A stretch of DNA of 52,050 bases from a virus: the IMG/VR virus record IMGVR_UViG_3300010412_000022, positions 1 through 52,050 of that record; one strand, written 5' to 3'. Position numbers and translations under genes: made by a program. Of the stretch, positions 40,553-51,065 are shown one piece after another. Every line of letters begins with the position of its first letter. Within the stretch, counting starts at the first letter, position 1. The notes below the pieces were generated by a model. It was not told where the DNA came from. It saw nothing but the letters and a program-made list of their open reading frames with translations, and ran no database searches.

Positions 40553-40570
40553 AATAAAGAAACAAAAGAA

Positions 40571-40604
40571 TGGACTTGCAACACCATACGGATTTTGATA
40601 TAGT
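40571..40604 (+). promoter_or_regulatory. Promoter before the HTH gene
   Basis: TGGAC at 40571-40575 directly precedes TTGCAA; 17 bases later follows TATAGT (40599-40604). The layout matches the TTGGAC class with one base less conserved. It ends about 55 bases before ATG 40660. Confidence 0.5.
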
Positions 40605-40659
40605 GAGGCTCATGGCAGCAAGACTGCCTAAACCCAAAGTGAAAATCGGAGAACTGAAA

Positions 40660-40932
40660 ATGTCAAAAGCAACTGCCAGCAAGACCAGTGGATTCAAACT
40701 GAGTTCATTGAAAAACATGACCAATGACCAGCGCGTTCTTGCTTATCTGAGAGCAAATCGCACAGAGGGTCTTGATGCCATCACTTCATTCGACAAGATT
40801 GGTGTTCATCGCCTGTCTGCCGCAGTGAACAAGCTGCGTAATGAAGGTCACAACATCGTGTCAGAAGACGTTGTGTATGAGAGCATATTTGGTGATGAAG
40901 TGACTGTGACCAGTTATCGCTTGAAGCGTTAA
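40660..40932 (+). CDS. Small winged-helix/HTH DNA-binding protein
   Basis: ATG 40660 has GGAG eight bases upstream and lies downstream of a promoter; a longer frame (from 40570) would cover that promoter. The 90-residue product has DQRVLAYLRANRTEGLDAI, then KIGVHRLSAAVNKLRNEGHNI, a pattern I know from small phage helix-turn-helix proteins in which VHRLSAAVNKLR would be the recognition helix. A strong terminator follows. It is the best candidate here for a phage transcription regulator. Confidence 0.75.
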   Translation: MSKATASKTSGFKLSSLKNMTNDQRVLAYLRANRTEGLDAITSFDKIGVHRLSAAVNKLRNEGHNIVSEDVVYESIFGDEVTVTSYRLKR

Positions 40933-40953
40933 CCGCACCGAGTAGGAGACCGA

Positions 40954-40985
40954 AGGGGTCATTCCGAAAGGTCTGACCCCTTTTT
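40954..40985 (+). terminator. Rho-independent terminator after the HTH gene
   Basis: AGGGGTCA and TGACCCCT form an 8-bp stem with a 12-base loop and are followed by a T5 tract. Confidence 0.9.
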
Positions 40986-40992
40986 CATTCTT

Positions 40993-41044
40993 GAGCCAGC
41001 CTGACGAGACTTAATAGAGTCGAAACACCCGATGGTGTAGCCGG
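40993..41044 (+). ncRNA. Type I hammerhead ribozyme, cleaving at the tRNA-Tyr 5' end
   Basis: The core CTGACGA (41001-41007) is followed by stem II GACT-TAATAG-AGTC, then GAAA (41022-41025), stem III CACC-CGAT-GGTG and T-A (41038-41039), the NUH site. Cleavage after A41039 would release G41040, the first base of tRNA-Tyr. Stem I pairs bases before the core (GCCAGC) with the tRNA start (GCCGG) with one A-C mismatch. All conserved core residues of a hammerhead are present. Its overlap with the acceptor strand means ribozyme and tRNA folds exclude each other. Confidence 0.75.
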
Positions 41045-41124
41045 AGTAGGAAAATTGGTAACCCCAGCGGATTGTAAATCCGCCGCGAAAGCTAATGTCA
41101 GTTCAAGTCTGACCTCTGGCACCA
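41040..41124 (+). tRNA. tRNA-Tyr(GTA)
   Basis: Acceptor GCCGGAG/CTCTGGC, anticodon arm GCGGA-TTGTAAA-TCCGC, a long variable region as expected for tRNA-Tyr, T arm with TTCAAGT, discriminator A and encoded CCA. Its 5' base is the predicted product end of the hammerhead ribozyme. Confidence 0.93.
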
Positions 41125-41131
41125 AATTACA

Positions 41132-41175
41132 CTGGACTGTACACTTATCAAAAACGCACTATAATGATAAGTGTA
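41132..41175 (+). promoter_or_regulatory. TTGGAC-class promoter with 11-bp inverted repeat
   Basis: CTGGAC 41132-41137, TGTACA, 16 bases, TATAAT 41160-41165. TACACTTATCA (41140-41150) and TGATAAGTGTA (41165-41175) are a perfect inverted repeat around the -10. The gene at 41195 follows. Confidence 0.75.
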
Positions 41176-41194
41176 TGTTCCAAAGAGAGTGAAT

Positions 41195-41713
41195 ATGGCG
41201 ATAGCACAATCAAGATACATCATTGCAGGATTCAACAATTACCTGTGTGATGAAAAAGATGTGAGAGAAATTGTGGATGATTATTCGTTACAGGTGAATG
41301 GTGTTGTGTTGCTTGAAACGGGTGTGATGAACCACAAGACCCACAAGACACATCATGCTACTGGCTTTGATGTTTCTGGAAACAGAAAGTCGGTGGGTGA
41401 TACACTAAGCGTTTCGAATAGTGGTGTGGAGTTGTGGAGACCAAGTACCCATCGCGTTGTCAGGTTGTCTGCAACTGAAAATCCTTTCAGTAAGGATAAC
41501 ATATTGGTCAAGGCGGCTATCAAAATTGTTGATGATTATGTTCGTGAAAAATTGGAACAAGGTGCGGCACTGGTCTTTGTGCCAAGGATTACTGCCCATA
41601 ATGGTATATGGTGGATTTCGGCTGTTGATGCCATCATCATGTCTGGTGAGCAATACGGAGAATATAAGGCAAAATTAAGTATTAGCAAGAAGGCTGAAGA
41701 TATACCGTTTTAA
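41195..41713 (+). CDS. Unknown protein behind an operator-like promoter
   Basis: ATG 41195 is preceded by AGAGAGTG. The 172-residue product has no recognised domain. Features are YIIAGFNNYLCDEKDVREIVDDYSLQ at the start, a His-rich segment (NHKTHKTHHATGFD, residues 45-60), and a C-terminal IPF preceded by Lys/Glu. The C-terminus with EDIPF after a flexible stretch resembles the tips of single-strand DNA-binding protein partners, which is only a weak hint. Confidence 0.7.
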   Translation: MAIAQSRYIIAGFNNYLCDEKDVREIVDDYSLQVNGVVLLETGVMNHKTHKTHHATGFDVSGNRKSVGDTLSVSNSGVELWRPSTHRVVRLSATENPFSKDNILVKAAIKIVDDYVREKLEQGAALVFVPRITAHNGIWWISAVDAIIMSGEQYGEYKAKLSISKKAEDIPF

Positions 41714-46511: not shown

Positions 46512-46586
46512 ATCTCGCTGGTGTTAATGGTAGCATGACGGTCTCCAAAACCGTTGGTTAAGGTTCAAATCCTTAGCGGGATGCCA
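46512..46586 (+). tRNA. tRNA-Trp(CCA)
   Basis: Acceptor ATCTCGC/GCGGGAT, anticodon arm ACGGT-CTCCAAA-ACCGT, T arm AAGG-TTCAAAT-CCTT, G and CCA. Confidence 0.9.
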
Positions 46587-46591
46587 AATAT

Positions 46592-46876
46592 GGTCGTATG
46601 AAGCAGATATAACTATCGGAAGACGGCGGTTCGAGTCCGCCCATGTCCACCAAAAGCATTTTCTATGAGAGTTCTTTTGATGGGCATGATTAGGTTTCGA
46701 TTCGGATGGAAGTTGAAGCAGACGACTCGGCAAGGTGAAAGCCGTTAGGATTGGGGGTTCCCAGTCAAAGAAGCAAAAAACGTAAATGCAAACGACAGTG
46801 CATACAACCAAGTAACTGCTTTGGCAGCTTAAGGCTTGGCGGGGATTGAGTATCCTTGCAATCCAACATACTCACT
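46592..46876 (+). ncRNA. ssrA: Circularly permuted (two-piece) tmRNA
   Basis: The 3' piece comes first: T arm GGCGG-TTCGAGT-CCGCC (46625-46641), then CATGTCC, A and CCA (to 46652). After 29 bases the 5' piece starts with GGGCATG (46682-46688), which pairs fully with CATGTCC, followed by ATTAGGTTTCGATTC as in tmRNA 5' ends. A tag frame at 46773-46832 reads AKNVNANDSAYNQVTALAA and stop; the ALAA end is typical of tmRNA tags. A hairpin GATTGGG/CCCAGTC lies where pseudoknot 1 is expected. A terminator follows. Exact piece ends are approximate. Confidence 0.85.
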
Positions 46877-46898
46877 GGTTCCCTTCGGGGAACCTTTT
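46877..46898 (+). terminator. Rho-independent terminator after the tmRNA
   Basis: GGTTCCC and GGGAACC enclose a TTCG tetraloop and are followed by T4. It ends the tRNA-Trp and tmRNA unit. Confidence 0.9.
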
Positions 46899-46901
46899 AA
46901 T

Positions 46902-46979
46902 TGCGAGGTACAATCAGTGGTAGATGGTTAGTCTCATAAGCTAACGGTCGTGCGGTTCGATTCCCACCCTTCGCATCCA
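46902..46979 (+). tRNA. tRNA-Met-type (CAT)
   Basis: Acceptor TGCGAGG/CTTCGCA, anticodon arm TTAGT-CTCATAA-GCTAA, T loop TTCGATT; the T stem needs a bulged C (46953). Discriminator T, CCA encoded. It starts three bases after the terminator. Confidence 0.8.
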
Positions 46980-49285: not shown

Positions 49286-49727
49286 TTTTGCTGACGACCT
49301 AGAGGTTTCCAGACAGACGGAATACCAGATAGGTCAATTGCTTGAGCAGAAAATGCAGTATGTTGTCAAGTCATATAATGACAATGCCAAGTACGATATT
49401 CTGGTCGAGGATAGAAATGGGGTTCCTTTGGCTATCGAGATAAAGGAAGACTTCATGTCGGCAAAGACAGGTAATGTGGCTGTCGAGTTTTCGTGCCGTG
49501 GCAAGCCATCCGGAATTGAGTCAAGCGAGTCTCATATATACATCTACAAGATATGGTTCAATGAAACTGACTTTGGTGTATATTGGATGCCGACCGAAAG
49601 ACTTAAAGGAATTATCAAAGACAAGAACTATTTCAGGATAGTGTCTGGTGGTGACAAGGGCAGTAATACCCAAATGTATCTGTTTCGATTGAATGAATTT
49701 GAACAACACTGTTTGAGGTTAGCCTGA
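49272..49727 (+). CDS. PD-(D/E)XK nuclease-like protein
   Basis: The 151-residue product has KYDILVEDRNGVPLAIEIKED with D42, E56 and K58, the core of the PD-(D/E)XK fold, and an N-terminal E in the first helix. Small proteins of this kind occur in many phages. They may be structure-specific or restriction-like nucleases. The ATG overlaps the preceding gene by 14 bases. Confidence 0.75.
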   Translation: MGNYNFADDLEVSRQTEYQIGQLLEQKMQYVVKSYNDNAKYDILVEDRNGVPLAIEIKEDFMSAKTGNVAVEFSCRGKPSGIESSESHIYIYKIWFNETDFGVYWMPTERLKGIIKDKNYFRIVSGGDKGSNTQMYLFRLNEFEQHCLRLA

Positions 49728-49927
49728 TGAAAAAAATTATTGTCGCATTGGCTCTTGCGTTAGCCATAGCTCCTGCACACGCATGGGTGTGCGAGGCGCG
49801 TTCAAATAGCGCGTGGGGTATCGGAAGCCATTGGGATTTGAATACCGCAGCACAGATTGCATTACAAGCCTGTGCAGTGAACACGCCACGATGGGATATG
49901 TGTGTGATAATAAGGTGTGAACCTTAA
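49727..49927 (+). CDS. Small exported Cys-rich protein
   Basis: The 66-residue product starts with a clear signal peptide (MKKIIVALALALAIAPAHA, cleavage after AHA). The mature 47 residues contain four Cys and the pattern SNSAWGIGSHWDLNTAAQIALQAC, which recalls DUF4189-type exported proteins of bacteria. It is probably periplasmic with two disulfides. This would be an uncommon cargo for a T4-like phage. Confidence 0.75.
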   Translation: MKKIIVALALALAIAPAHAWVCEARSNSAWGIGSHWDLNTAAQIALQACAVNTPRWDMCVIIRCEP

Positions 49928-50365: not shown

Positions 50366-50602
50366 AGCATCGGGAGGTGTGGATTCACTCAATCCAATCA
50401 GCGAACCATCAGTGTCAAAGGGTAGGGTAACTGTCAGAACCTTAGCGGGTAAAGGCTATTATCCAGTTTGATAGTTTCATTGTTCCGGCAGTGAATCTTG
50501 AAAGACGGTAAGATTAGGTTTAGCGACTGAAATTACATGAGGCGTGTGGCATTTTGTAGCCCAAAAGGTTATGAAACCACGGCAACGCACGTCTTGGTTG
50601 GT
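50366..50602 (+). other. Hairpin-rich stretch of unknown function before a tRNA
   Basis: No convincing gene is seen. Local hairpins include AATCTT/AAGATT (near 50495-50520), GGTT-ATGA-AACC and the outer pairing GTGG/CCAC with GCGT/ACGC (50545-50590). CTTAGCGGGT at 50441-50450 recurs at 50803-50812. It could be a structured RNA leading into the tRNA-like gene at 50603. Confidence 0.4.
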
Positions 50603-50702
50603 AACGACTTAGCTCAATTGGTAGAGCAATTGCATTTGAAAGCAATAGGTTGGTGGTTCGATTCCATCATCGTATACTAAAATAAACGGAAAGTCGTTGC
50701 CG
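50603..50702 (+). tRNA. Interrupted tRNA-like gene with 8-base anticodon loop
   Basis: D arm GCTC-AATTGGTA-GAGC and T arm GGTGG-TTCGATT-CCATC are normal. The anticodon stem ATTGC/GCAAT encloses ATTTGAAA, eight bases. The 5' acceptor AACGACT does not pair with the bases after the T stem but pairs fully with AGTCGTT 23 bases later (50692-50698), followed by G and CCG. Phe (GAA) is the likeliest origin. It may be a pseudogene or need processing. Confidence 0.55.
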
Positions 50703-51065
50703 GTGTGTAGTGAAAGCAACTTAATGCCTGACAGTTTACTGAATCAGGTGGTTTCAAAGCTCCCAAGGCTGAGAGACTTTTGGTAGAATACGCACGTTGA
50801 ATCTTAGCGGGTTCTTTACAGGGGTAAAACCTTGACGGTAGGAACAAACCAGAGTAGCTGCACATGACAGTAGAATCGCCTCTACTATAAAAAGGCAGTT
50901 GTGGCAGGATAGTCTCATGAGAGACTGGATAAGTTTCCAATGTAGGGTTGGTAGCCTTGCAGTACAGAAACGAAAGACCTGCTGGTTAGGCTGTAATCTC
51001 AAGCCAAACACCTTAGACTGTTTTTCATAACACTTCCTGTGAGTTTTATGATAAAGAGTTTCAAT
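50703..51065 (+). other. Hairpin-rich stretch of unknown function
   Basis: No gene of support is seen in these 363 bases. Strong local hairpins are CCTGACAGT-TT-ACTG with TCAGG (50725-50750), TTTAC-AGGG-GTAAA (50814-50828), and AGTCTC-ATGA-GAGACT (50911-50926). GAGACT at 50772 could pair with AGTCTC at 50911, as the P7 helix does in group I introns, but other intron elements were not found. Confidence 0.4.

Follow-up and report, generated by a model that had tools for sequence, protein, structure and literature searches.

We analyzed a hammerhead ribozyme that abuts a transfer RNA (tRNA) gene in IMG/VR virus record IMGVR_UViG_3300010412_000022, which was taken in full (positions 1 to 52,050; this whole stretch of 52,050 nucleotides (nt) is called the window below). 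Judged from its genes, the window phage is T4-like; its gp46 is approximately 45–47% identical to gp46 of Synechococcus and Methylophilales phages. The right quarter of the window contains 22 predicted tRNA genes and one transfer-messenger RNA (tmRNA), as called by ARAGORN. One of these genes, tRNA-Tyr (positions 41040 to 41124; all window features given here with coordinates around this gene are on the plus strand), has a cloverleaf, a GUA anticodon, a 7-base-pair (bp) acceptor stem (GCCGGAG/CUCUGGC) and an encoded CCA end, and it was found both by ARAGORN and by Infernal (RF00005, 49.5 bits). Positions 40988 to 41053 were confirmed as a complete type I hammerhead in sequence and fold, with stem I completed by the first bases of this tRNA-Tyr and with a cleavage site that is predicted from the class.

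Read from 5′ to 3′, the element begins with the 5′ strand of stem I (40988 to 41000; UUCUUG, AG and CC-A-GC), whose partner in the minimum free energy (MFE) structure of 40988 to 41055 is the 5′ end of the tRNA. This strand is followed by CUGACGA (41001 to 41007), which supplies the catalytic core residues C3-U4-G5-A6-N7-G8-A9 and follows the CUGANGA pattern that is invariant in every member of our phage hammerhead alignment A2. Stem II (41008 to 41021) pairs GACU (41008 to 41011) with AGUC (41018 to 41021) around the 6-nt loop UAAUAG, the core residues G12-A13-A14 are provided by GAA (41022 to 41024), and stem III (41025 to 41038) pairs ACACC (41025 to 41029) with GGUGU (41034 to 41038) around a CGAU loop; both stems were identified from sequence and fold. 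A15.1 (A41025) pairs with U16.1 (41038), as in type I hammerheads, and G41037-U41038-A41039 forms the NUH triplet. Type I geometry places the predicted cut after H17 (A41039) and before G41040 (41039/41040), and in the predicted fold the 3′ strand of stem I (41040 to 41052; GCCGG, AG and UAGGAA) consists of tRNA positions 1 to 13, comprising the 5′ strand of the acceptor stem and the D-stem side. The original prediction, made from the letters of the window, had proposed a type I core with CTGACGA, stem II GACT/AGTC, GAAA, stem III CACC/GGTG and a T-A pair, and all of these residues are present. ARAGORN and Infernal agree that the first base of tRNA-Tyr is 41040, the base directly after the predicted cut, and therefore the cut is predicted to fall exactly at G1.

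The MFE structure of 40988 to 41055 (−17.1 kcal/mol) matches the hammerhead three-way junction exactly, with three helices and an open stem I. Stem I is not a clean helix: 2 bp, an A·C mismatch and 2 bp (CCAGC/GCCGG) are followed by an AG/AG internal loop and a distal helix of 6 bp (UUCUUG at 40988 to 40993 with UAGGAA at 41047 to 41052) that reaches tRNA positions 8 to 13. The full-length RNA (40988 to 41124) folds instead as the tRNA together with hairpins II and III, and stem I is lost. As a model of co-transcriptional folding, we folded RNAs with successive 3′ ends and read the probability of the stem I pair 2.1-1.1, which yields equilibrium values and not kinetics. This probability was 0.38 at +5, 0.70 at +11 and 0.77 to 0.93 from +17 to +59, and was then 0.09 at +65 and approximately 0.02 in the complete tRNA. 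Approximately 50 nt of transcription would plausibly be available for cleavage before the tRNA fold wins. The foldings reproduced the earlier expectation that the two folds compete because stem I uses the acceptor strand.

To describe the element for chance estimates, we required the core, at least 4 bp in each of stems II and III, and at least 2 bp in stem I. Dinucleotide shuffling of the whole window (600 shuffles) gave two matches to this descriptor; with the cut also falling on one of the 23 gene starts called by ARAGORN, out of 104,100 strand positions, the joint chance is approximately 7 × 10−7 per window by our arithmetic from the shuffles. We also trained a covariance model on nine other phage hammerheads, with the window left out, and searched the window with filters off. 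The site scored 45.1 bits (E value 4.8 × 10−12, such values being rough by the tool’s own statement), and the gap to the next match in the window is large. That match (49718 to 49764, 11.4 bits) sits at a gene start and was rejected. Among 32 phage hammerheads, which scored from 28.5 to 71.2 bits, the window ranks in the middle. The assignment to the hammerhead class thus holds up against a model built without the window.

The arrangement recurs in other phages (contigs from our searches are denoted by L followed by a number). Strict patterns tying a hammerhead to the consensus tRNA 5′ end gave no other exact-end case in viral and genome contigs, which first suggested that the window arrangement was a singleton, and offset and relaxed versions of these patterns added none in the descriptor scan. 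The singleton view was overturned by a scan anchored on the CCA end of a preceding tRNA, which found 36 stretches versus approximately 5 expected by chance (for an assumed collection size of approximately 50 gigabases); about two dozen of the 36 form stems I to III. Besides the window, three sites in two contigs have a predicted cut exactly at a tRNA 5′ end, two in L241 and one in L235. The strict patterns had missed both units of L241 because they demanded T8 and A14, of which unit L241b lacks the former and unit L241a the latter.

L241 is a 347-kilobase (kb) viral contig with two tandem units, each consisting of a hammerhead and a tRNA-Tyr(GUA). The first hammerhead (HH_a: CUGGC CUGAUGA GUCC UAACAG GGAC GAA ACGAGA...UCUCGU C / GCCAG AG UAG, with the slash at the cut) has its predicted cut before G6525, and its tRNA-Tyr was missed by ARAGORN and found by Infernal (33.6 bits). 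In the second (HH_b: UCCGC CUGAUGA GUCU UAUUAG AGAC GAA ACAUCU...AGAUGU C / GCGGG AG ACG), the predicted cut lies before G6674, which is the ARAGORN start of the second tRNA-Tyr. L235 is a 69-kb contig with the order tRNA-Gln, hammerhead, tRNA-His, in which the 5′ strand of stem I overlaps the CCA end of tRNA-Gln. Here the predicted cut precedes G1503, and ARAGORN starts tRNA-His one base later; G1503 is G-1 opposite C73 and therefore the mature end of a bacterial tRNA-His. Together with the agreeing starts from ARAGORN and Infernal, these sites uphold the register originally claimed for the first base of tRNA-Tyr in the window. A fourth lineage (L084/L092), with a 6-bp stem I and a 7-bp stem III, has its predicted cut 8 nt upstream of tRNA-Gly. 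The carriers are distant from each other by sequence, the large terminases of the window phage and L241 being 29% identical. The P-loop kinase family PF13671 was found among the carriers in the L092 record only, and we draw no conclusion from it. In cultured phages, blastn with the window or L241 element gave no hammerhead match, and the short matches at E values of 7 to 8 are attributable to chance.

Comparison of the window with the two L241 units shows compensatory changes in the 4 bp of stem II, which is GACU/AGUC in the window, GUCC/GGAC in L241a and GUCU/AGAC in L241b, and a stem III that is wholly different between the window and the L241 units and paired in all of them. The leader also changes together with the acceptor strand, from CCAGC/GCCGG (one mismatch) to CUGGC/GCCAG and UCCGC/GCGGG. 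In all three elements, 5 bp of stem I lead into an AG/AG internal loop, and loop II has 6 nt of the form UA(A/U)(U/C)AG (UAAUAG in the window, UAACAG in L241a and UAUUAG in L241b); these common features suggest that stem I and loop II are in tertiary contact. Across 32 aligned phage hammerheads, in an alignment that was fitted to the structure and hence leans towards it, 96.4% of cells are paired, 170 cells are changed on both sides (48 in shuffles), and covariation scores 0.87, compared with at most 0.12 for slid controls. In both L241 units (L241:6468-6650), the leader sequence AUCAG can pair with CUGAU of the core, and this alternative fold wins in our predictions once the tRNA is complete. 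It is possibly an off state; the pairing is missing from the window.

On the basis of the sequence, the register, the fold, the covariation across phage hammerheads and the recurrence in other phages, we infer with a probability of about 0.77 that this is an active hammerhead that would act during transcription and in vivo to make the tRNA-Tyr 5′ end in cis, without ribonuclease P (RNase P). Transcription through 41050 would allow the first tRNA bases to complete stem I, and the nascent RNA would fold as the hammerhead while approximately 11 to 60 nt of the tRNA are transcribed. The hammerhead would then cut itself between A41039 and G41040, giving a leader with a 2′,3′-cyclic phosphate and a tRNA with a 5′-OH on G1, end groups that follow from the chemistry of the hammerhead class. 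Stem I would give way to the acceptor stem once transcription has covered the 3′ half of the tRNA, and the ribozyme would have supplied the mature tRNA 5′ end in cis with RNase P not needed. Only a type I hammerhead can use a tRNA strand as stem I in cis, since types II and III have further ribozyme sequence after the cut.

Several points weigh against this reading, which depends on predicted cleavage. The mismatch in the window’s stem I falls at the third pair, and H17 is an A, which is permitted but less usual than C. The nascent hammerhead is predicted to be less dominant for L241b and L235, and L241a and L241b are tandem paralogs that represent one lineage. Among 100 records picked for a similar tRNA-Tyr, there was one hammerhead lineage only (L084/L092); therefore, tRNA-Tyr does not in general need a hammerhead and the arrangement is rare. 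No close relative of the window phage was found by flanking protein or by gp46 (the best gp46 among viral contigs is 45% identical), and the window locus itself therefore offers no reading of covariation. Finally, a search with the Rfam hammerhead models, proposed as a check when the element was first noticed, gave no match for the region even at E ≤ 10, short of the RF00163 gathering score of 34 bits. The same search gave 22.7 to 29.1 bits (26.0 and 22.7 bits for two clear cases), below gathering, or no match at E ≤ 0.5 for textbook phage hammerhead loci, and the hammerhead of L022, which scores 71 bits with our covariance model (as one of its training members), is absent from the Rfam matches. 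Because the Rfam models miss or under-score clear phage hammerheads, this negative carries little weight, and the missing match is a limit of the model and not of the ribozyme.

It is possible, though unlikely, that a real and cutting hammerhead serves to end or release the upstream messenger RNA (mRNA), or to protect its end by a 2′,3′-cyclic phosphate, with the tRNA end as a by-product that RNase P would make anyway. Phage hammerheads have been suggested to cut long transcripts into gene-length mRNAs (Perreault et al., PMC3088659), and most of those that we found sit between genes or before other RNAs and not at the start of a tRNA. However, at four sites, among them the one at G-1 of tRNA-His in L235, the predicted cut matches the mature 5′ end base for base, and because the register is this exact the tRNA end appears to be a selected feature. 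In L235, moreover, the upstream gene is another tRNA. The upstream gene in the window is an open reading frame of 120 amino acids (40570 to 40932; PHROG 4973, function unknown), and fold and sequence indicate a strong, terminator-like hairpin just upstream of the ribozyme (40952 to 40985; AAGGGGUCA...UGACCCCUU, then a T tract) that would already give this gene a 3′ end. The hairpin has a z of −2.9 in the fold of 40936 to 41055 and is not among the features listed by the consensus scan. There is no good promoter between the hairpin and tRNA-Tyr; either tRNA-Tyr depends on read-through, or the hairpin is no terminator.

Alternatively, the hammerhead may be decayed or inactive, with the A·C mismatch and the stronger tRNA fold blocking cleavage and RNase P doing the work, as could be argued from the position of the mismatch and from the loss of stem I in the full-length RNA. 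We consider this improbable: no core residue is altered, stems II and III pair perfectly, the nascent RNA is predicted to fold as the hammerhead over approximately 50 nt of transcription, and the 45-bit score is inside the range of other phage hammerheads. A chance likeness of the tRNA leader to the hammerhead consensus, conceivable for a window chosen by a reader seeking oddities, is very improbable given the joint probability, the E value with the independent model and the recurrence of the exact-end arrangement in other contigs.

Hammerheads were also found near other structured phage RNAs. In L281 (1501-1688; also L237:6037-6224), a hammerhead follows tRNA-Asp and its predicted cut, before 1549, precedes a YrlA Y-RNA-like RNA (RF02553, 69.7 bits, 1560-1688) by 11 nt; tRNA-Thr comes after this RNA. 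Phage Y-like RNAs may owe their 5′ ends to hammerheads. Downstream of the hammerheads of L276, L279, L275, L272 and L282, a tRNA lies beyond 116 to 138 nt of unassigned RNA. In L267 (2076-2613), a GOLLD RNA (198.6 bits) is followed 15 nt on by a type I hammerhead (2565), and this contig also carries the tRNA-His hammerhead and a third hammerhead at 1640. A phage type I hammerhead family in 5′ untranslated regions (L022, L023, L007, L008, L016, L020, L026 and L029) occurs in several copies in some contigs and has GACU/AGUC or a similar sequence as stem II. The window itself contains a GOLLD RNA (50539-51005, 181 bits), inside which lies a tRNA-like gene (50602-50677) with the four-base anticodon ttga as called by ARAGORN, and a permuted tmRNA (46559-46923; RF04321, 108.9 bits) with the tag ANDSAYNQVTALAA, which adjoins tRNA-Trp.

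Making the 5′ ends of tRNAs is regarded as a near-universal task of RNase P. We find it reasonably likely that several phage lineages would make the 5′ ends of some of their own tRNAs (Tyr three times, and His once including G-1) by cis hammerheads with the acceptor strand as stem I, a second route independent of RNase P, and that sister hammerheads lying within tRNA arrays may do the same for other structured RNAs of phages, for example the Y-RNA-like RNA. If true, the cis hammerhead would be a natural, minimal alternative to RNase P, and phage hammerheads would gain a concrete function. This reading predicts phage tRNAs with 5′-OH ends, which can be sought directly by RNA sequencing of infected cells.

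We class the element as a type I hammerhead, with predicted cleavage, in what appears to be a new role. RNase P would cut tRNA 5′ ends in the same place, and that of tRNA-His likewise before G-1, but it is a trans-acting ribonucleoprotein that leaves a 5′-phosphate, whereas the hammerhead would act in cis and leave a 5′-OH. Searching the open-access literature (subscription journals and preprints lay outside this scope), we came across no report of a hammerhead at the 5′ end of a tRNA. Hammerheads have been described in phages and prophages, where their roles are unclear (PMC3088659; PMC6155905). The type I hammerheads of phages and prophages (Perreault et al. 2011, PMC3088659; RF00163, clan CL00010) have the same core (CUGANGA...GAAA...NUH), three helices, an open stem I and a phage context, and some of those in the present search likewise sit between protein genes. 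Unlike the window element, in which the acceptor strand of the tRNA forms part of stem I and the predicted cut coincides with the tRNA 5′ end, the published cases lie near protein genes, and the word “tRNA” occurs in that paper only once, in a reference title; the window hammerhead also differs in scoring below the reach of the Rfam models.

Theta ribozymes, which have the hepatitis delta virus (HDV)-like fold and are found in gut phages, resemble the window element in being self-cleaving, in lying in cis to phage tRNAs and in being proposed to replace a host nuclease (PMC10879173). The region from 40900 to 41200 gave no HDV-clan match at E ≤ 10, and the element lies 5′ of its tRNA. The original prediction had named theta ribozymes as the precedent for a tRNA-adjacent ribozyme; they do adjoin phage tRNAs, but their authors propose processing of the 3′ trailer and not of the 5′ end, a role that by their account had not been reported before (PMC10879173). 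Theta ribozymes thus combine an HDV fold with a position 3′ of the tRNA, whereas the window has a hammerhead 5′ of the tRNA, with one ribozyme strand supplied by the tRNA itself, and its 5′-end role would mirror the 3′-trailer role proposed for theta ribozymes.
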